From: Immundisolibacter cernigliae
GTDB lineage: Bacteria; Pseudomonadota; Gammaproteobacteria; Immundisolibacterales; Immundisolibacteraceae
Reading direction: 5' to 3'
DNA length: 64,000 bases
NCBI RefSeq assembly: GCF_001697225.1
Contig: NZ_CP014671.1
Coordinates: 558,001-622,000 of the forward strand
How positions within the stretch are numbered: the stretch's first letter is position 1; the number at the start of each line of letters is the position of its first letter. A program made the translations under genes and the position numbers. The notes under the pieces are model-generated. The model was not told the DNA's origin and did not search any database. It worked only from the letters and a program-made list of their open reading frames with translations. Positions 19,486-30,422 of this stretch are shown here, one piece after another.

Positions 19486-20703
19486 ATGACGCGCGCCCAG
19501 TTCCGATCATTCCCAGCCGACGCACTGCGCTCGGACCGCAGCGCCGGCGATCGCGCCCGGCACCGCCAGAAGGTGCGCCAGGCGATCCGCGACAACATCG
19601 GCGACATCGTCGCCGAAGAGGCCATCATCGGCCGCAGCGGCGACCGCATGGTCAAGGTGCCGATCCGCGGCATCCGCGAATACCGCTTCGTGTACGGCCA
19701 GAACCAGCCCGGCGTCGGCACCGGCGAGGGCGGCACCGAGGTCGGCCAGAGCGTCGGCCAGGGCGACCAGTCCGGCGCCGGCAAGGGCCAGGGCGGCAAC
19801 GAGGCCGGCCAGGATTACTACGAGACCGAGATCAGCCTGGAAGAGCTGATCGACATCATGTTCGAGGACCTGTCCCTGCCGGACCTGGAGCGCAAGAAGC
19901 TGCGCCAGTTGCCGTCCGAGCACGCCTTCCAGCGCAAGGGCTTCCGGCATTCCGGCATCCGCGTGCACCTGGACAAGAAACGCACCGCCATGCAACGCAT
20001 CCGGCGCCAGATCGCCCAGCGTGCAGGTGCGCCGGGCGTGCCGACCGGCGAAGGCATGGCCGGCGACACCGAGAAGCGCTTCCCCTTCCACAAGGAGGAC
20101 ATGATCTACCGCCGCCTGCTGCCGGACACCCGGCCGCAATCGAACGCCGTGGTGCTGTGCATGATGGACACCTCCGGCTCCATGGACAGCACCAAGAAAT
20201 ACCTGGCGCGCTCGTTCTTCTTCCTGCTGTATCAGTTCGTGCGCAGCCGCTATGCGGAAGTCGAGCTGGTGTTCGTGGCCCACCACGCCACCGCCGCCGA
20301 GGTCACCGAGGACGAGTTCTTCCACAAGGGCGAGTCCGGCGGCACGGTGATTTCATCCGCCTATCAGAAGGGGCTGGAGATACTCGCCGAGCGCTACCAC
20401 CCGAGCCTGTGGAACATCTACGCCTTCCACTGCTCGGACGGCGACAACTTCCCCGGCGACAACGACAAGACCGTGCAGGCGGCCGAGGCCATCTGCGAGA
20501 TGGCCAACCTGTTCGGTTACGGCGAGATCAAGCCGCCCGGCCGCGGCATCTTCGAAAGCTCCATGCTCGAGACTTTCTCGCGCATCAAGTCCGACTGCTT
20601 CCACGCCCTGACCATCCACGGCAAGGAAGACATCTGGCCCGGCCTGAAAGCCTTTCTGCAAAAGGACCGGGCCGCACAGGCCACCGGAGGTGAACATGCG
20701 TAG
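19486..20703 (+). CDS. yeaH: YeaH/YhbH family protein (DUF444)
   Basis: A 405-residue DUF444 protein. A charged N-terminus is followed by a Gly-rich linker (about 75-110, GTGEGGTEVGQS). A von Willebrand A-like domain then carries the metal site DTSGSMD near residue 229. YeaH is the partner of the PrkA kinase; in Bacillus the homologue YhbH is a sporulation protein. AGGAGG 6-10 bases upstream supports ATG 19486. Its end overlaps the start of spoVR by 8 bases, so the two are translationally coupled. Confidence 0.93.
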   Translation: MTRAQFRSFPADALRSDRSAGDRARHRQKVRQAIRDNIGDIVAEEAIIGRSGDRMVKVPIRGIREYRFVYGQNQPGVGTGEGGTEVGQSVGQGDQSGAGKGQGGNEAGQDYYETEISLEELIDIMFEDLSLPDLERKKLRQLPSEHAFQRKGFRHSGIRVHLDKKRTAMQRIRRQIAQRAGAPGVPTGEGMAGDTEKRFPFHKEDMIYRRLLPDTRPQSNAVVLCMMDTSGSMDSTKKYLARSFFFLLYQFVRSRYAEVELVFVAHHATAAEVTEDEFFHKGESGGTVISSAYQKGLEILAERYHPSLWNIYAFHCSDGDNFPGDNDKTVQAAEAICEMANLFGYGEIKPPGRGIFESSMLETFSRIKSDCFHALTIHGKEDIWPGLKAFLQKDRAAQATGGEHA

Positions 20704-22123
20704 CTGGGACGTCGATGACCTGATCGGCTGGGACGAGCGCATCCGCGAGAAAGTGGCCGAATTCGGCCTGGACTGCTTCCCGCAGGTGTTCGAAATCTGC
20801 GACGAGGAGCAGATGCTCGGCTACATGGCCTACCACGGCATGCCCTCGCACTACCCGCACTGGTCCTACGGCAAGTCGTTCGAGAAGCTCAAGACCACCT
20901 ACGACCACGGCGTCAGCGGCCTGCCCTACGAGATGGTCATCAACTCGAACGAGTCGATTGCGTACCTGATGCGCAACAACTCGCTGTGCCTTCAGATCCT
21001 GACCATCGCCCACGTCTACGGCCACAACGATTTCTTCAAGAACAACTTCACCTTCCAGGGCACGCACCCGGAGCTGACGCAGTCGCGCTTCAAGGCGCGC
21101 GCCGACCGCGTGCGCCGCTACGCGGAAGACCCGGCCATCGGCATCGACAAGGTGGAGGCGGTGCTGGATGCCGCCCACGCGTTGTCCTTCAACTGCCGGC
21201 GCAACCTCGGCGTGCGCAAGCTGGGTCACGCCGAACAGCGCGAGCGGGCCATCGAGGCCACGCACGGCCCGCACGACCCGCACCCGGACATCCACCGCGC
21301 GCCGCAGCTGCCCGAGCCGGACCTGCGCCGCGTGCCGCTGGAGCCGGAAGAGGACATCCTGCTGTTCATCCGCGACCACAATCCGTACCTCGCCAACTGG
21401 GAGCGGGACCTGCTGACCATCGTCCACGAGGAAGCGCAGTACTTCATCCCGCAGATCGAGACCAAGATCATGAACGAGGGCTGGGCCAGCTTCTGGCACC
21501 ACCGCATCGTCAATAGCCTGGACCTGCCGGCCGACCTGCAGATGGAATTCATGGTCCACCACTCGCAGGTGGTGCGCCCGCACCCGGGCAGCATCAACCC
21601 GTATTACCTGGGCTTCAAGCTGTGGCACGACATCCTGCGCCGCTGCGAGAACCCGACCCCGGAAGAGCGCGAGCGCTACGGCGGCCCCACCGACGGCATG
21701 GCGACGCTGATGCGCATCCGCGAGGCAGACCGCGACGCCTCGTTCCTGCGCCAGTTCCTGACCGGCCGGCTGATGCGCGAGATGGACATGTACGAGTTCG
21801 GCCCGGAGGACGACGAATACGTCGTGCAGCGCGTGGCCGACGAGGACAGCTGGCGGCAGATTCGCGACACCCTGATCGGCAGCGTCGGCATGGCCGCCTT
21901 CCCGGTCATCCGCATCGACGATGCCGACTACGACGGCGCCCGCAAGCTGCACCTGACACACGCCTACGACGGCCGGGAACTGGAACTCGGCCAGGCCGAA
22001 AAGACCCTGGCCTACCTGCACCGCCTGTGGGGCCGCGGCGTGGTCATCGAAACCACGCTGCAGGACAAGCCGGCGCAGCTGATTTATGACGAGGGTGGTT
22101 TTGCGCCGAAACTCGCCGCCTGA
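20696..22123 (+). CDS. SpoVR family protein (YcgB-like)
   Basis: A 475-residue SpoVR-like protein with the family blocks HWSYGKSFEKLK, YEMVINSNESIAYLM, AHVYGHNDFF and MNEGWASFWHH, all rich in His and Glu. These may bind metal, though the biochemical role is unknown. GGAGGTGAAC in front of ATG 20696 sets the start; the GTG at 20690 is the tail of that ribosome site. Third gene of the prkA-yeaH-spoVR operon, an arrangement conserved from Bacillus relatives to proteobacteria and tied to stress or starvation. Confidence 0.94.
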   Translation: MRSWDVDDLIGWDERIREKVAEFGLDCFPQVFEICDEEQMLGYMAYHGMPSHYPHWSYGKSFEKLKTTYDHGVSGLPYEMVINSNESIAYLMRNNSLCLQILTIAHVYGHNDFFKNNFTFQGTHPELTQSRFKARADRVRRYAEDPAIGIDKVEAVLDAAHALSFNCRRNLGVRKLGHAEQRERAIEATHGPHDPHPDIHRAPQLPEPDLRRVPLEPEEDILLFIRDHNPYLANWERDLLTIVHEEAQYFIPQIETKIMNEGWASFWHHRIVNSLDLPADLQMEFMVHHSQVVRPHPGSINPYYLGFKLWHDILRRCENPTPEERERYGGPTDGMATLMRIREADRDASFLRQFLTGRLMREMDMYEFGPEDDEYVVQRVADEDSWRQIRDTLIGSVGMAAFPVIRIDDADYDGARKLHLTHAYDGRELELGQAEKTLAYLHRLWGRGVVIETTLQDKPAQLIYDEGGFAPKLAA

Positions 22124-22156
22124 GCGCGCCTTGGGACGGGTGGAAACTGCCGATCT

Positions 22157-22261
22157 GTAACCCATCATGCGGCGCCGGGGCACACGCCTGAGCCCCCCTG
22201 ACAATCCGGCTGCGTGTACCTATTCGCGGATTGATGGGTTACGCTGCGCTTCACCCATCCT
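22157..22261. repeat. Inverted repeat / palindromic element after spoVR
   Basis: GTAACCCATCA (22157-22167) and its exact complement (22232-22242) flank a 64-base spacer. The right copy also pairs with ACCCATC at 22255-22261 to make GATGGGT-N13-ACCCATC. This GATGGGTTACGC-type palindrome is of the dispersed repeat class. It marks the left edge of the accessory island. Confidence 0.6.
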
Positions 22262-22342
22262 AGGCGCTACGCTTTTGGTTGCCCATGATATTTACGTCAG
22301 GTGACTGGGTAGGTCGTCGCGTTTCAAATCAAGGGGATTCAT

Positions 22343-22699
22343 ATGCGCTTGCTTGTCTTAGGTTTCCTTCTTATCTCTCTAGCTGGCTGTGCAACTGCGG
22401 CAAAGCAGACCAATGCACCAATGAGCCAGTACGACAACAATACGAAACACGCCATTGAGCCGCGCCCTGATGGCTTTTTAGTTTCAATCTACTACTCGCG
22501 CTATCAATTCTTTCCCGAGAGCGACGCAGTTGCCACTGCGTGCAAGCAAGCGCTCACGTCCATCGCCCACGAGCACGCGTCCAAAGCGGGCCGTGAGATC
22601 GAGCAGATCAATGAGCAGGCGATCCGCCTCTCTATGGGCCGCAACGGCTTGTCTGGCATTACGTCATGCAGTGCTTCTGCGCCCGCCAAGTGGAAGTAG
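22343..22699 (+). CDS. Cassette-encoded lipoprotein of unknown function
   Basis: A 118-residue protein with a signal peptide ending in the lipobox LAGC (cysteine 16), so probably lipid-anchored in the envelope. No known domain was recognised; the middle has YYSRYQFFPESDA and the end is rich in Ser and Ala, with two further cysteines. AAGGGG 7 bases upstream supports the ATG. Base composition is visibly poorer in GC than the neighbours. The gene is followed 6 bases after its stop by an integron attC site, so it is the gene of a mobile cassette. Confidence 0.8.
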   Translation: MRLLVLGFLLISLAGCATAAKQTNAPMSQYDNNTKHAIEPRPDGFLVSIYYSRYQFFPESDAVATACKQALTSIAHEHASKAGREIEQINEQAIRLSMGRNGLSGITSCSASAPAKWK

Positions 22700-22704
22700 C
22701 CGCC

Positions 22705-22764
22705 ATCTAACAATTCATTCAAGTCAACGCCGCTTCGCGGCACGGCTTAATTCAGGCGTTGGGC
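22705..22764 (+). mobile_element. Integron attC recombination site (60 bases)
   Basis: The site opens with ATCTAAC (fits RYYYAAC) and closes with GTTGGGC (fits GTTRRRY). The interior is imperfectly palindromic, with central hairpin GCCGC-TTC-GCGGC at 22729-22741 and the CAATTCATTCAAG and CTTAATTCAGGCG arms typical of aadA-type attC. Crossover would fall between 22758 and 22759. No integrase gene or attI is visible in the window, so this is an orphan cassette. Confidence 0.85.
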
Positions 22765-22779
22765 CTCAAGGAGAAGTTC

Positions 22780-23193
22780 GTGAATCGTCGAGACAGCAAG
22801 ATCGTTGAGCTCATTGAGTCAGGTGCCGATCCCGATAGCCTGACAGCGCTAATTCGAGAGGTCATGGCGTCCGATCTATCGCACATGGCGGAGATTGCAG
22901 CGATGATAGCGAACGTTAGCACGAACGGATCGGACCGCAATAATCAACTCTCAAAACTGCGTGTAATTATGTCGAGGATCTGTGATGAAATGGGCATAGA
23001 GAAGCTCACGGTCAAGAGCGCGCGAGGCGGCTACGTCGTGACGCGTTCAAACCCCAGATACGATCCACGCAGACTACAAGGCTTAATTACCTCCATTGAA
23101 CGCGCTGCAGAGGAATTGAGGCATCTTTCACCGGTGGAACGTGAAGAATTCCTAGATCACGCATGCAGAGTTCTAGGCATCCAGCGAGCGTAG
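22780..23193 (+). CDS. Second cassette-like gene, hypothetical protein
   Basis: A 137-residue soluble protein with no recognised domain. It looks mostly helical (IVELIESGADPDSLTALIRE, then MASDLSHMAEIAAMIANVS) with a central segment TVKSARGGYVVTRS. AAGGAGAAG 6 bases before GTG 22780 fixes the start; a TTG at 22759 would begin exactly at the attC crossover and is less likely. The gene begins 16 bases after the attC site, as cassette genes do, and is lower in GC than the chromosome. No attC follows it; an IS110 remnant lies there instead. Confidence 0.7.
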   Translation: MNRRDSKIVELIESGADPDSLTALIREVMASDLSHMAEIAAMIANVSTNGSDRNNQLSKLRVIMSRICDEMGIEKLTVKSARGGYVVTRSNPRYDPRRLQGLITSIERAAEELRHLSPVEREEFLDHACRVLGIQRA

Positions 23194-23199
23194 ATACTG

Positions 23200-23512
<313 letters not shown>

Positions 23513-23532
23513 CGCGAAACAATGGAACCGAG

Positions 23533-24045
23533 ATGCGATATCGGCGTACGGATACAAAAGGCGGCACCTACTTCTTCACGGTGAACCTTGCGCAGCGTCA
23601 ACTTCGCTTGCTGGTGGACCACGTTGCGGTTTTGCGGGCCGCTGTGAAAGAGGTGAAAGGGCGCCACCCTTTTCACATTGATGCATTCGTGGTCTTGCCG
23701 GATCACCTGCACGCAATATGGACGCCGCCGGAAGGCGACGCCGACTTTGCGATGCGGTGGATGTTGATCAAGGCAGGGTTTTCGCGACACATCGCCAAGG
23801 GTGAACACCGAAACGCGAGCCGGATTGGCAAAGGCGAGCGTGGAATCTGGCAGCGGCGGTATTGGGAGCACATGATTCGCGACGCGCACGATTACGAACG
23901 GCATGTGGATTATGTTCACTATAACCCTGTGAAGCACGGACACGTCAACCGCGCAGCGGAGTGGCCACATTCGAGCATCCATCGGTATATTGCGGCTGGC
24001 ACCCTGGGTTATGATTGGGGTGGCGAGACCAACGGAAGAGATTAA
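23533..24045 (+). CDS. REP-associated tyrosine transposase (RAYT)
   Basis: A 170-residue single-domain transposase of the IS200/IS605-like Y1 group. It has the HUH metal motif in LPDHLHAIW (H58, H60) and the signature YVHYNPVKHGHV near residues 128-139, where the catalytic tyrosine (Y128 or Y131) lies. Such proteins cut and join single-stranded REP palindromes and are domesticated or host-fixed genes. The start ATG 23533 is chosen from a longer open frame because upstream codons run through the REP repeats. REP copies flank it in opposite orientations (23392-23512 and 24077-24110), which implies they are its substrates. Confidence 0.9.
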   Translation: MRYRRTDTKGGTYFFTVNLAQRQLRLLVDHVAVLRAAVKEVKGRHPFHIDAFVVLPDHLHAIWTPPEGDADFAMRWMLIKAGFSRHIAKGEHRNASRIGKGERGIWQRRYWEHMIRDAHDYERHVDYVHYNPVKHGHVNRAAEWPHSSIHRYIAAGTLGYDWGGETNGRD

Positions 24046-24076
24046 AGTGGATATGGCGAGCGCTGAAATAATTCGC

Positions 24077-24110
24077 GTTGGGGTTCGCAAGCTCACCCCA
24101 ACCTACGGGC
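24077..24110 (-). repeat. REP unit, family B copy 3 (inverted)
   Basis: GTTGGGGTTCGCAAGCTC followed by ACCCCAACCTACGGGC is the reverse complement of the units at 23392 and 23464. With them it brackets the RAYT gene as inverted repeats, the arrangement usual for bacterial RAYT loci. Confidence 0.85.
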
Positions 24111-24177
24111 AGCTACGGGCTAAGCGCGCCGTAAGGCGCAATGACCGCGGAGCATTGCGTCGTATGAATCTTCATCC

Positions 24178-24206
24178 GGTGCAATGCGGCTTCGCCTTAT
24201 TGCACC
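24178..24206. repeat. Palindromic element in the RAYT downstream gap
   Basis: GGTGCAAT and ATTGCACC form an 8-base stem around a 13-base loop (GCGGCTTCGCCTT). It looks like another interspersed hairpin. The rest of the 307-base gap 24046-24352 holds the family B copy 3, a possible coding remnant at 24249-24338 and nothing else recognised. Confidence 0.5.
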
Positions 24207-24248
24207 CGCGCTCCCGACGCCAGGTCACGGTGTCAATCCAGTCTCCTC

Positions 24249-24338
24249 GCCGGCGGGCTGACGCCCGATCGCGCAACAGCTTTGCTTGCCGATATCAAAA
24301 AGGCCACGGACGATATCAGGCGAACAATGTCAGCATAA
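24249..24338 (+). pseudogene. Possible C-terminal coding remnant
   Basis: A frame ending TAA at 24336-24338 reads AGGLTPDRATALLADIKKAT then DDIRRTMSA, an amphipathic helix-like stretch. It has no start codon of its own and no upstream body. It may be the last 30 codons of a gene cut by a repeat insertion, or a chance frame. Confidence 0.25.
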
Positions 24339-24352
24339 GTGAGAAAGCAACA

Positions 24353-24793
24353 ATGTTTAAACATTTCATGTTGCCTCTGGGAATGGCAGCATTAATGGCG
24401 TGCTCATCAGCAACGGAGGAGGTTTCGAGCGACCGAGCGGGGGTTGCGCCCGACGATGCCATCCTGGCATGGGCGCGCGAGCGGCATGGTGAACATGTGT
24501 ATCAGCCTATACAAATTTTCTACGGAGATTTCACCGGCGACGGCTTGGTCGATGCCTTGGCTTGGGTGCTTTATCCAAGCGGCGGCAATAGCGATTTTCT
24601 GGATGTAGCTCTGTTCCGCAACGAAGACGGACTCATGGCCTATTATCGGAGCGTTGATGACGTATTCGGTAGCAACCCGCGCGATGTTGTTTTTGATCAA
24701 GGGCGCATCACACTGACCACAACAATGCCGAAGCCGGACGACCCACGCTGCTGCCCAACTGGGTTACGTGATTGGGTAATCGACACGAAATGA
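24353..24793 (+). CDS. Lipoprotein of unknown function (accessory island)
   Basis: A 146-residue protein with a signal peptide and lipobox-like LMAC (cysteine 17), then a small globular domain with FYGDFTGDGLVDALAWVLYP. The string DFTGDGLVDALA resembles the calcium-binding FG-GAP/VCBS type loop (DxDGDG-like), though only one copy is present. The base composition is lower in GC than the chromosome backbone. The start ATG 24353 has only a weak GAGAAAG site. The gene lies between REP units and has no recognised partner. Confidence 0.65.
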   Translation: MFKHFMLPLGMAALMACSSATEEVSSDRAGVAPDDAILAWARERHGEHVYQPIQIFYGDFTGDGLVDALAWVLYPSGGNSDFLDVALFRNEDGLMAYYRSVDDVFGSNPRDVVFDQGRITLTTTMPKPDDPRCCPTGLRDWVIDTK

Positions 24794-24796
24794 CAG

Positions 24797-24850
24797 CCCG
24801 TAGGTTGGGGTGAGCTTGCGAACCCCAACAGGTCATGACAGGTCGTGACA
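24797..24850 (+). repeat. REP unit, family B copy 4
   Basis: CCCGTAGGTTGGGGTGAGC then TTGCGAACCCCAACAGG repeats the family B hairpin, followed by GTCATGAC and GTCGTGACA words. Same orientation as the copies at 23392 and 23464. Confidence 0.8.
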
Positions 24851-24856
24851 AAGGAA

Positions 24857-24983
24857 GCTGAATAAATCCATCCTGGATTTTCCAGCGCCCGCCATCGGGA
24901 AATAGCCTTGCGACGCAGCTTTGCCACGCGATCATCGCCCGGCGAAGCCGGGCTCCTACAGTTCGCCGATGGCTCGCAATCCT
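24857..24983. repeat. Composite repeat: family C unit and family A REP copy 2
   Basis: 24857-24898 is a 42-base unit that recurs inverted at 47496-47537 with a single mismatch; its core is AAATCCA-TCC-TGGATTT. 24937-24953 is the family A hairpin GCCCGGC-GAA-GCCGGGC followed by TCCTACA and, after it, CCGATGGC. Together they fill most of the 236-base gap before the cysteine-synthase-family gene. Confidence 0.7.
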
Positions 24984-25029
24984 TAATTCGGTTATCCAGA
25001 CTCCCCAGGCCGGCTTGGCCGCGGCCGCC

Positions 25030-26031
25030 TCAGGCCAGCCAGTCGGGCGTCGGCAGGCCTTTCTCGCGCAGAAAGGCCGGGTTCCACAGCTTGCCCTGGT
25101 AGCGCTGGCCGTAGTCGCACAGCAGCGTGACGATGGTGTGGCCCGGCCCGAGTTCCCGCGCCAGGCGCCGCGCCCCGGCCAGGTTGATGGCCGTGGAACC
25201 GCCCAGCACCAGGCCTTCCTCGCGTGCCAGGTCGAACAGCAGCGGCAGCGCTTCCTGGTCCGGGATGGCGTAGGCGCGGTCCACGGGGGCGCCTTCGAGA
25301 TTCGCCGTGATGCGGTTCTGGCCGATGCCCTCGGTGATCGAATTGCCCTCGGCCTTCAGCTCACCGTGCATGTAGTAGTTGTAAAGGCCGGCGCCCAGCG
25401 GATCGGCGCAGGCGATGACCACGTCCGGCCGGCGCGCCTTGAGCGCCATGCCGATGCCGGCCAGCGAGCCGCCGGTGCCGACCGCGCAGACGAAGCCGTC
25501 CACCGTGCCGCCCGTTTGCTCCCAGATCTCCGGACCCGTGGTCTCCAGATGCACCTGCCGGTTGGCGACGTTGTCGAACTGGTTTGCCCACAGCACGCCG
25601 CCCGGCTCCGTGGCGGCCAGCTCCTCGGCCAGCCGGCCGGACAGGCGCACGTAGTTGTCGGGGTTCTTGTACGGCACCGCCGGGACTTCGCGCAGCGTCG
25701 CGCCGGCCAGACGAATCGCGTCCTTTTTTTCCTGGCTCTGGGTTTGCGGAATGACGATCAGCGTGCGGTAACCGAGCACCCGGCCGACCAGCGCCAGACC
25801 GATGCCGGTGTTGCCGGCGGTGCCTTCCACGATCAGGCCGCCGGGGCGCAGCGCGCCACGCCTTTTGGCGTCGCGGATGATGCCCAGCGCCGCGCGGTCC
25901 TTGACCGAACCGCCGGGGTTCAGGAACTCGCACTTGCCCAGAATTTCGCAGCCGGTTTCGTCTGACAGCCGGCGCAGGCGCAGCAGCGGTGTGTTGCCGA
26001 TCAGGCCGATGAAGTCCGGGGTTATGTTCAT
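25030..26031 (-). CDS. PLP-dependent cysteine synthase family protein
   Basis: A 333-residue fold type II PLP enzyme. The PLP lysine is K44 in NPGGSVKDRAA and the substrate loop reads EGTAGNTGIG. The glycine-rich phosphate loop is AVGTGGSLAGIG. The protein is close in layout to CysK/CysM, but the N-terminal and C-terminal segments (WNPAFLREKGL, DYGQRYQGKLWNP) are those of the group annotated as cysteine synthase A or cysteine desulfhydrase (Cds1-like). It either makes cysteine from O-acetylserine and sulfide or runs the reverse. No cysE or transport partner is adjacent. Confidence 0.85.
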   Translation of the reverse strand: MNITPDFIGLIGNTPLLRLRRLSDETGCEILGKCEFLNPGGSVKDRAALGIIRDAKRRGALRPGGLIVEGTAGNTGIGLALVGRVLGYRTLIVIPQTQSQEKKDAIRLAGATLREVPAVPYKNPDNYVRLSGRLAEELAATEPGGVLWANQFDNVANRQVHLETTGPEIWEQTGGTVDGFVCAVGTGGSLAGIGMALKARRPDVVIACADPLGAGLYNYYMHGELKAEGNSITEGIGQNRITANLEGAPVDRAYAIPDQEALPLLFDLAREEGLVLGGSTAINLAGARRLARELGPGHTIVTLLCDYGQRYQGKLWNPAFLREKGLPTPDWLA

Positions 26032-26131
26032 GCCTCTACTCCTGTGGCGCTGGCCGGCTCCGGGCGATACACGGTGGCAGTGGAAACCGACCGCGCGGAC
26101 GCCGCGGACCGTCTTGGTCGGCCGTCTTGCG

Positions 26132-27967
26132 TCAACCGTTCAGATCGCGCACCGCACCGCGGTCGGCCGAGGTGGCAAAGCGCGCGTAGGCTCGCAGCGC
26201 CGTGGAGACGCTGCGCTCGCGGTCCTTCGGCTGCCAGGGGGTAGCGGATGCTTCCATCGCTTGTCGCCGGCGGGTGAGTTCGGCTTCGTCCACGGCCAGA
26301 TGAATGCGCCGGGCGGGGATGTCGATCTCGATGCGGTCGCCCTCCTCCACCAAACCGATCAGGCCGCCGGCCGCCGCCTCGGGCGAGATGTGGCCAATCG
26401 ACAGACCGGATGTGCCGCCCGAGAAGCGGCCGTCGGTGACCAGCGCGCAGGCCTTGCCCAGGCCCAGCGATTTCAGGTAGCTGGTCGGGTAGAGCATTTC
26501 CTGCATGCCGGGGCCGCCGCGCGGGCCCTCGTAGCGGATCAGCACCACGTCGCCGGCCTGAATGCGCTTGCCCAGGATGGCCTCGACGGCATCGTCCTGG
26601 CTTTCGAACACGCGCGCCGGGCCGGCAAAGCGCAGGATGGACTCGTCCACGCCGGCGGTCTTGACGATGCAGCCGTTCTCGGCCAGGTTGCCGTACAGCA
26701 CGGCCAGGCCGCCATCGCGGCTGTAGGCGTGTTCGAGATTGCGGATGCAGCCCTTGGCGCGGTCGATTTCCGGCTCCCAGGTGCGCGCCTGCGAGAACGC
26801 GACCTGGGTCGGCACGCCGCCGGGGGCGGCGCCGAACAGCCGGTGCGCGGCCGGATTGGCGGTCGCGGCGATATCCCAGGTGGCCAGCGCATCGCCCAGC
26901 GTCGGCGCATGCACGGTCGGCACGGAGAGGTCCAGCAGGCCGCATCGGCCCAGCTCACCGAGGATGCCCAGCACGCCGCCGGCGCGGTGCACGTCCTCCA
27001 TGTGATACGCGGCGGTGGCCGGCGCCACCTTGCACAGGTTCGGCACGCGCCGGGACAGGCGGTCGATGTCGGCCATGGCAAAGTCGACCTCGCCTTCCTG
27101 CGCGGCGGCCAGCAGGTGCAGCACGGTGTTGGTGGAGCCGCCCATGGCGATGTCGAGCGCCATGGCGTTTTCGAACGCCGCGCGGGTGGCGATGCCACGC
27201 GGCAGGGCGCGGGCATCGCCCTGTTCATACCAGCGCCGGCACAGCTCGACGATGGTGCGACCGGCCTGCTCGAACAACTCGCGCCGGTAGGCATGCGTGG
27301 CCAGCAGACTGCCGTTGCCGGGCAGACTCAGACCCAGCGCCTCGGTCAGGCAGTTCATGGAATTGGCCGTGAACATGCCCGAGCACGAGCCGCAGGTTGG
27401 GCACGCGCTGCGCTCCATGGCCAGGCTCTCGGCGTCGCTGACGTTCGGATCAGCGGCGGCGATCATGGCGTCGATCAGGTCGACGGCCGTTTCGGTGCCC
27501 TTCCACTGCACCTTGCCGGCCTCCATTGGCCCGCCGGATACGAACACCGCCGGAATGTTCAGGCGCATGGCCGCCATCAGCATGCCCGGCGTGATCTTGT
27601 CGCAGTTGGAGATGCACACCAGCGCGTCGGCGCAGTGGGCATTGGCCATGTACTCGACCGAGTCGGCGATCAGCTCGCGGGACGGCAGCGAATACAGCAT
27701 GCCGCCGTGGCCCATGGCGATGCCGTCATCGACGGCGATGGTGTGGAACTCGCGCGCCACGCCGCCGGCGGCCTCGATCTGCCGCGCCACGATCTCGCCC
27801 AGGTCCTTCAGGTGTACGTGGCCGGGCACGAACTGCGTGTAGGAGTTGGCAATCGCGATGATCGGCTTGCCGAAGTCGCTTTCCTGCATGCCGGTGGCGC
27901 GCCACAGGGCGCGCGCGCCGGCCATGTTGCGGCCTTCGGTGGAGGTGCGGGAACGGTAGGCGGGCAT
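26132..27967 (-). CDS. ilvD: Dihydroxy-acid dehydratase
   Basis: A 611-residue enzyme of valine/isoleucine synthesis that dehydrates 2,3-dihydroxy acids to 2-keto acids. It carries the Fe-S cysteines in [11 protein letters not shown] and [14 protein letters not shown], and the C-terminal [16 protein letters not shown]. Length is close to the 616 of E. coli. ATG 27967 starts [20 protein letters not shown], the usual beginning; a longer frame to 28549 only shadows cobU. Transcribed toward the cysteine-synthase-family gene with a 100-base gap. Divergent from cobU. Confidence 0.96.
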
Positions 27968-28108
27968 GAGAGGCTCCGGAAACGACCGAGCGGTGCAGGG
28001 CTGACTGGGCATTCTAGCCGCCCGGCACCGCGCGGGCTTGCCGACACCGACCGCTGCTGGCCCGATAATGGCGCCTGTCGCCATCCCCATCCGGTTCGCC
28101 TTCCTGAT

Positions 28109-28630
28109 ATGAAAACGCTGATCCTGGGCGGTGTGCGCTCGGGCAAGAGCCGCCTCGCCGAACGGCTGGCGCGGGAATCGGGCCGGCCGGTCACCTACAT
28201 CGCCACCGCCACCGCGGGCGATGCCGAGATGAGCGAGCGCATTGCCGCCCATCGTGCCCGTCGGCCGGTCGACTGGGCGGTGATCGAAACTCCGCTGGCG
28301 CTGGCCGCCACCCTGCACGCGCACGCCCGCGCCGACGGCTGCCTGATCGTCGACTGCCTGACGCTGTGGCTGACCAACCTTCTGCTGGCAAACGATGAAC
28401 AGGCGCTTGCCCGCGAACGGCAGGCGCTGCTGGATACGCTCGCTGTCCTGCCGGGCGACATCCTGCTGGTCGGCAACGAAACCGGCATGGGCATCGTGCC
28501 GCTGGGCGAACTGACCCGCCGCTACTGCGACGCCGCCGGCTGGCTGCACCAGGACATTGCCGCCTGCTGCGATCGGGTGCTGCTGACCGTGGCCGGGCTG
28601 CCGCTGGCGCTCAAGGGCGAGCTGCCGTGA
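28109..28630 (+). CDS. cobU: Adenosylcobinamide kinase / guanylyltransferase
   Basis: A 173-residue bifunctional enzyme that phosphorylates adenosylcobinamide and transfers GMP in the late step of cobalamin assembly. The P-loop is GGVRSGKS (residues 7-14); the guanylylated histidine is probably H48 (AAHRARRP). [12 protein letters not shown] and [10 protein letters not shown] match CobU. The stop overlaps the GTG of cobT (GTGA). No cobalamin riboswitch is evident in the 141-base gap to ilvD. Confidence 0.95.
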
Positions 28631-29682
28631 GCCTCGACTGGCTGCACGGACCCTGCGCCGTGCCGGACGCCGCTACCGCCGCCCGCGCCGCCGCTCGGCA
28701 AGGGCGGCTCACCAAGCCGCCGGGTTCACTCGGTCGACTCGAAGCCCTCGCAGTGCAGCTCGCGGCTTGGCAAGGCCACGACCAGCCGACGCTGGAGTGC
28801 GTTCAGGTTTGCGTATTTGCGGGCGATCACGGCGTGGTCGCGCAGGGCGTGTCGGCCTTTCCGCAGGCGGTCACGGCGCAGATGCTGCGCAACTTCGTCA
28901 GCGGTGGCGCGGCGGTCAGCGTGCTGGCGCGCCAGCTCGGCGCGCATCTTGAAGTCGTCAACCTGGGCACCGCCGTCGACCCCGGTCCGCTGCCGGAGCT
29001 GATCGACGCCCGCATCGCGCCCATGACGACCGATTTCACGATCGCGCCGGCCATGACGACGGCGCAGCTGAACGCCGCACTCTCGGCCGGCCGGGATGCC
29101 GTGGCGCGCGCCCGAAACGCCGGCGCCCAGCTGTTCATCGGCGGCGAGATGGGCATCGGCAACACCACGGCGGCGGCCGCGCTGGCCTGCGCGCTGCTGG
29201 GCGAGGCGCCACAGCAACTGGCGGGCCCGGGCACGGGACTCGATGCGAGCGGCGTGCGGCGCAAGGCGGCCGTCATTGCGCAGGCCCTGTCGCTGCACGA
29301 AGCGCACTGCGGCGAGCCGCTGGAAGCGCTGCGGCGCCTCGGCGGCTTCGAGATCGCCGCCCTGACCGGCGCCGCCATCGCCTGCGCCCAGGCCGGGCTG
29401 CCGCTGCTGGTGGACGGCTTCATCGTCAGCGCGGCGATGCTGGCTGCGTGCCGCATCCAGCCGGCGGTACGCGACTGGCTGTTGTTTGGCCACCGCTCGG
29501 CCGAACCGGGACACGACCGCGTGTTGCAGGCGCTGGACGCCGCGCCCCTGCTGGCGCTCGATATGCGCCTGGGCGAGGGCAGTGGCGCGCTGACCGCGCT
29601 GCCGCTGCTGCGCCTGGCCTGCGCGCTGCATGGCGAAATGGCGACGTTCAGCGAAGCCGGCGTTGCCGGGAGCCAACCATGA
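28627..29682 (+). CDS. cobT: Nicotinate-nucleotide:dimethylbenzimidazole phosphoribosyltransferase
   Basis: A 351-residue enzyme that makes alpha-ribazole phosphate, the lower ligand of cobalamin. [17 protein letters not shown] near residue 60, [10 protein letters not shown] and the C-terminal LGEGSGA, which holds the family's catalytic glutamate, are intact. The GTG start overlaps cobU and the stop overlaps cobS. With cobU and cobS it forms the nucleotide-loop branch, so the strain probably completes cobalamin from salvaged or otherwise made cobinamide. No cobC phosphatase follows. Confidence 0.95.
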
Positions 29683-30422
29683 TCACCGCCCTGTGGCGCC
29701 CGCTACGGCTGGCGCTGGCCATGCTGACCACGCTGCCGGTGCCGCAGCCGACCGCGCCCGATCCGGACGAGCTCGGACGCGCCCCCCTGACCTACCCGCT
29801 GGTCGGCGTGCTGCTGGGCGCACTGCTGATCGGCGCCAGTTGGGCGCTGTTCGACCTGCCGCCGCTGGCCGGCGCGGCCATCGTGCTCGCGCTGTGGACG
29901 CTGCTGACCGGCGCGCTGCACCTGGACGGCCTGGCCGACTGTGCCGATGGCCTGCTGGGCGGCCATGCCGATGCAGCGCGGCGGCGCACCATCATGCACG
30001 ACCCGCACGTCGGCAGCGCGGCCGTGGTCGCCCTGGTGCTGGTGATGATCGGCAAGTTCGCCGGCCTGGCGGCGGCGCTCGATCACGGCAACCTGCTGCC
30101 GCTGCTACTGGCACCCGTACTCGGCCGCGGCGCCGTGCTGGCGCTGATGTGCGCCCTGCCCTACAGCAGCCCCGGCGGCATGGCAGAGGCGATCACGGCG
30201 CGGCTGCCACGCCAGACCGGCTGGCTGGTCGTGGCGGTGGTCGCAGGGCTGTCGCTGATCGTGGCGCCCGGCGCCTTGCTGCTGGCGGCGCTGCTGGTCT
30301 GCCTGATCGGCCGCGGCGCCCTGCACCGGCTGGGGGGCGCCAGTGGCGATGTCTACGGCGCGGCCATCGAGTTGATCGAGACCGCCGTACTGCTTGCGAT
30401 GGCCCTGCCATCCGGCACCTGA
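29679..30422 (+). CDS. cobS: Adenosylcobinamide-GDP ribazoletransferase (cobalamin synthase)
   Basis: A 247-residue integral membrane protein with about six to seven spans that joins adenosylcobinamide-GDP and alpha-ribazole. The signature [15 protein letters not shown] lies near residue 80, followed by [22 protein letters not shown] near the N-terminus is also conserved. It overlaps cobT by 4 bases. It is the last gene of cobUTS; a 295-base repeat-rich gap follows. Confidence 0.94.

Follow-up and report, generated by a model that had tools for sequence, protein, structure and literature searches.

The usual picture of an integron is a single integrase with an attI beside it and one array of gene cassettes. 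Cassettes also occur at chromosomal sites outside an integron: Loot and colleagues are said to have reported in 2024 their insertion at attG sites in E. coli (as cited in PMC12444791 and PMC11023631). CALIN and single-attC elements, classes distinguished by IntegronFinder that carry attC and cassette genes with no neighbouring integrase, are well known and are seen as degraded integrons (PMC9024848), and intI pseudogenes are well known too (PMC2426708). In the chromosomal integrons and CALINs of Xanthomonas, an ancestral integron has repeatedly lost intI, CALINs occupy several fixed loci, cassettes turn over, and CALINs are mobilisable in trans (PMC12444791). We analysed a stretch of 64,000 nucleotides (the window) from the chromosome of Immundisolibacter cernigliae TR3.2 (3,243,537 bp, CP014671; PMC5054325), where cassette genes lie downstream of the host gene spoVR (20690-22123, plus strand; Pfam SpoVR, 3e-140). 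Like a CALIN, this locus has an attC and cassette genes with no integrase beside them. It differs in holding one attC, where a CALIN by the IntegronFinder 2.0 default needs at least two without an integrase (other loci of TR3.2 do carry two or more), and in being among at least 10 loci of the genome, a truncated intI and attI being retained at six of them. The difference from Xanthomonas, where intI lies nearly always downstream of ilvD (PMC12444791), is that TR3.2 has no full intI and repeats a short head with a fixed left end, a head being the beginning of intI with its attI. An integron at the Xanthomonas position was considered and rejected: ilvD (26132-28000, minus strand) is not adjacent to the array but separated from it by about 2.9 kb, with cysM (25030-26031) in between, and no intI is present there. 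Our reading is that window 22296-23193 is probably a decayed two-cassette array, one of at least 10 loci of a multi-locus integron system served by an integrase acting in trans that is now lost.

The site at 22705-22764 (plus strand) is a genuine attC. It begins 5 bases downstream of a lipoprotein ORF (22343-22699), with R'' ATCTAAC at 22705-22711, R' GTTGGGC at 22758-22764, the crossover point between 22758 and 22759, and the L'' and L' arms and central CCGCTTCGCGG hairpin in between. The initial annotation had recognised both ends, the arms and the hairpin behind the lipoprotein gene, and three results confirm it. Firstly, BLASTN matched the 60-mer to at least 5000 plasmid records, with 93-95% identity over the full length in the best hits; in both of the records examined, which are class 1 integrons, the match is the attC behind qacF/qacL and intI1 is part of the same array. 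Secondly, a leave-one-out covariance model gave the site 37.3 bits (E=3e-7 in 64 kb), the runner-up scoring 11.8 bits. The seeds were other attC of the TR3.2 genome and one from a full integron of a relative, the loops of some having been shortened by hand ahead of alignment; covariance models were used instead of a self-written attC finder and simple pairing search, which were too noisy. Thirdly, the genome holds a second copy of the site, 87% identical over 54 bp. Across a set of nine attC the L arms covary (85% of cells paired, 0 of 500 shuffles, at most 42% when slid), and a set of 19 sites shows the same covariation in an alignment fitted to the model. A search of Rfam gave nothing at gathering thresholds. 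That an ordinary hairpin of the host, or a chance match, stands here behind a native lipoprotein gene is scarcely credible. Low-scoring attC-like matches do occur in GC-rich DNA, and the simple pairing search gave many, but the 95% identity over 60 bp to a class 1 integron attC is enough to refute this, and the leave-one-out score, the homologues of the lipoprotein in cassettes, the foreign composition of the cassette genes and the absence of the array from a more distant relative all argue the same way.

The attC had also been called complete, which holds for its sequence but not for its stem. It departs from the qacF site at three bases, all of them transitions and all in the stem; the canonical bottom-strand fold is weakened because of this position, reaching -4.5 kcal/mol against -14.7 kcal/mol for the qacF site, and its share of the ensemble is 0.025 against 0.13. 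Nine other attC of TR3.2 gave -5.0 to -21.8 kcal/mol for the canonical bottom-strand fold in the same calculation, and unconstrained minimum-energy folding was uninformative. Judged by its calculated fold, the window attC is probably weak in function. The cassette differs from the class 1 qacF/qacL cassettes in other respects as well: it carries another gene, it is chromosomal and it has no IntI1.

The first cassette gene (22343-22699, plus strand) encodes a lipoprotein of 118 aa with the lipobox LAGC, which belongs to an unnamed family and had no Pfam or NCBIfam match above cut-off and no PDB fold match at E<=0.001. Ten homologues with 52-71% identity come from other classes and phyla; among their hosts are Kangiella, Oceanospirillaceae, Cellvibrionaceae, Acidovorax, Psychromonas, Magnetospirillum and a deltaproteobacterium. 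The family shows 36 invariant columns. By eye, an attC of a different type lies directly 3' of the homologue in Kangiella, an Oceanospirillaceae MAG and a Cellvibrionaceae MAG; the covariance model confirms one of the three (locus L058). An attC stands at the 3' end of a single ORF, and the gene recurs in arrays of unrelated bacteria, as in integron gene cassettes. Base composition is foreign, with GC 55% and GC3 0.66 in the lipoprotein gene and GC 52% and GC3 0.56 in the second cassette gene, against GC3 0.93 in spoVR. The attC, the homologues in other cassettes and this composition support the identification as an integron cassette made in the initial annotation. A beta-beta-alpha-beta-beta domain is predicted from residue 35 on, behind the lipid anchor, and the most that can be proposed is an envelope-exposed small-domain lipoprotein. 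For neither cassette gene was a plasmid homologue found, and the scan upstream of the lipoprotein ORF found no consensus promoter.

The array extends beyond the 22343-22764 given at first, an extent that proved too short. On the left, a possible 5' boundary of cassette 1 is GTCAGGT at 22296-22302 (plus strand), where GTTRRRY is expected; it matches GTTAGAT, the complement of the cassette's own R'', at 5 of 7 positions, and its similarity to attI ends is not significant. On the right, a second cassette ORF of 137 aa (22780-23193, plus strand) opens with GTG 15 bp after the R' box; it matched no Pfam or NCBIfam family above cut-off. No attC for this gene was detected in 20000-30000, even with filters off, nor was any attC other than 22705-22764 found in the 64-kb window. 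The array is truncated by the remnant of an IS110-family (IS621-like) transposase C-terminus (23200-23385, minus strand), whose matches to IS621-family transposases, up to 61 aa long, are 62-65% identical. Behind the remnant, a REP-associated tyrosine transposase (NF047646, 7.7e-59) was identified in window 23394-24115 with GTAGGTTGGGGTGAGCCTGCGAACCCCAAC repeats on both sides, the transposase with its repeats being placed at 23533-24045. Farther on, a second small lipoprotein ORF (24353-24793, 146 aa, no family) is possibly a former cassette; no attC follows it.

The initial annotation had seen neither integrase nor attI, and this was borne out. The window contains no intI, and comparison of 22124-22342 with eight attI ends yielded no significant remnant (best p 0.012 among eight tests), so that the functional intI and attI of a complete integron are not found beside these cassettes. 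The annotation had called the cassette an orphan, which our searches for intI and for other attC showed to be wrong at the scale of the genome. The second covariance model found at least 13 attC at at least 10 loci in TR3.2 and at least 6 well-supported attC in the sister species (G001); in a more distant relative (G002) there was none among the 150 candidates scored, and as 150 candidates were scored per genome, the counts are lower bounds. We found no full intI in TR3.2, where no tyrosine recombinase exceeds the integron-integrase cut-off (TIGR02249); two full-length matches fall far under it and are read as Xer-type. The genome does carry six N-terminal intI fragments, at 196, 1700, 2797, 2826, 3066 and 3107 kb, none above the family cut-off. 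Behind each lies an attI-like region that closes with a GTTRGRY-type core, and cassette genes come next; among these we recognised by eye one gene at 1701 kb as aquaporin-like and one at 2826 kb as helicase-like, and elsewhere no named gene.

For comparison we used the two further Immundisolibacter genomes available, which are draft assemblies (330 contigs in the case of G002). The spoVR region of TR3.2 and the sister species is 95.7% identical in DNA up to window 22268, and homology ends where the array begins; behind spoVR, the sister species carries different cassette material and then the contig ends. This material includes an attC (G001 C20:889-966) that scored 43.8 bits with the site in the model's training set and 25.7 bits by the first model, built without it. 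Elsewhere in the sister species (C18:44454), the match to cysM, which lies behind the window array in TR3.2, is restricted to its last 51 codons. G002 has no array behind spoVR, uvrD, gloB or the acyl-CoA synthetase gene, and for this reason the arrays probably arrived after the split from G002. The arrangement is hence not fixed in all relatives; the initial annotation had named such fixation, with no cassette signs, as grounds for giving up its reading.

That annotation left the choice between an insertion at a secondary site and the last piece of a decayed array. A single insertion by IntI at an attG-type site downstream of spoVR, with never an attI or head in that place, is unlikely. Its attraction is that attG insertions have reportedly been seen in E. 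coli, that homology with the sister species ends sharply at 22268 and that the locus shows no significant attI remnant; the lack of a significant attI or intI remnant also counts against a decayed array. An attG insertion would leave a single cassette and an empty site in relatives, and the site is empty in G002 but occupied by other cassettes in the sister species. A second cassette ORF follows the lipoprotein cassette, and in the sister species the corresponding position is taken by another array, which includes at least one attC; because of these two facts, the spoVR site appears to have been used repeatedly, like a docking site. The locus thus took one set of cassettes in TR3.2 and another in the sister species; elsewhere in TR3.2, unlike at attG sites, there are attI heads, which are lost stepwise from one locus to another. 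Across comparable loci we observed an intI fragment with attI, only about 80 bp of attI, and neither. Since the 134-kb locus keeps an attI remnant of about 80 bp only, and since at ubiD a cassette-like gene of TR3.2 stands where the sister species carries a head, the window locus may plausibly have lost a head. The second ORF, the cassettes of the sister species and these stages make a decayed array the better fit of the two.

The heads themselves are repeats. Type A begins within intI at GGTGGCGCYTGCCGTG (codons HGKRHP) and runs for about 283 bp as far as the attI crossover; it comprises the first ~43 intI codons together with attI. Eight copies exist, three in TR3.2 and five in the sister species. 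Non-orthologous copies are identical at 0.83 of positions right of the boundary and 0.54 left of it, shuffled sequences giving 0.53. Seven of the eight end within a few bases of the same codon, amid unrelated flanks; the copy at 196 kb reaches further into intI, and the G001 C12 and 3066-kb copies have ~20 bp of left flank in common. A second head type, at 1700 kb and in its G001 ortholog, starts at the same codons as type A. At the acyl-CoA synthetase locus (2826 kb in TR3.2, C2:4406 in the sister species) the head differs by species, one having type B and the other type A. In the loci retrieved, the left end has no inverted copy and the heads showed no terminal inverted repeats; the head is therefore probably not a simple transposon, and its copying does not look like that of a classical transposon. 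We tentatively propose, at a little under an even chance, that the dispersed heads are a repeat making many attI docking sites for one integrase in trans, so that the integron would have multiple sites instead of a single platform with its array, and that the window array belongs to this system. Another explanation would place a full integron once at each locus and have every intI decay independently, the shared left end reflecting selection for a cassette promoter in the start of intI, and in known integrons the Pc promoters do sit in the start of intI or in attI. In its favour, too, some heads retain longer pieces of intI, up to codon 68-122, and intI pseudogenes are common (PMC2426708). Yet independent deletions would hardly give seven of eight type A copies one end point within unrelated flanks, and a consensus scan, which can miss a promoter, detected no sigma-70-like promoter in any head, so that we regard independent decay as quite improbable. 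Within the open-access literature searched, we found no description of short intI-attI units that are dispersed and share a fixed end, and no paper linking Immundisolibacter with integrons.

Cassettes have turned over behind these heads. At three orthologous loci (1700, 2797 and 3066 kb), the heads of TR3.2 and the sister species align up to the attI core, after which the cassettes differ wholly; at 1700 kb the two genomes align again in the right flank, from 10 bp past the last, weak attC-like site. As the cut point is identical in both species, the cut in the head is older than the exchange of cassettes, barring gene conversion. Different cassettes at orthologous truncated heads suggest that an integrase worked in trans and is now lost. 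This is the simplest reading of the turnover, although homologous exchange of whole arrays between strains could also produce it.

Under the multi-locus reading, an ancestral integrase of the genus would have served many separate docking sites. Once the lineage had separated from G002, truncated heads and arrays with no recognisable head, like the window array, would have been dispersed, for the most part to positions behind host genes, and cassettes would have been swapped at the docking sites by the integrase in trans, which has presumably since disappeared. The lipoprotein cassette may have arrived as a circle through attC recombination. Now it would be immobile on its own and act as a fixed chromosomal gene, because no IntI is encoded, the stem of its attC is eroded and the next attC is gone where the IS110 remnant begins.

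Taken alone, the window cassette is ordinary; the repeated truncated heads are the unusual part. If the proposal is correct, many similar truncated heads with different cassettes would mean that a docking site can spread apart from its integrase; cassettes would gain many places in one chromosome, and some arrays filed as CALIN would find an explanation. The fixed left end of the heads offers a concrete handle on the copying route. In the attI regions of relatives (L053 in G007, L054 in G003 and L052 in G002), we also observed palindromes immediately 5' of the GTT core; they vary in sequence and keep their symmetry, and a perfect example of 40 bp, GACATCAAAGTGACGTGTTATAACACGTCACTTTGATGTC, occurs in G003 and G007.
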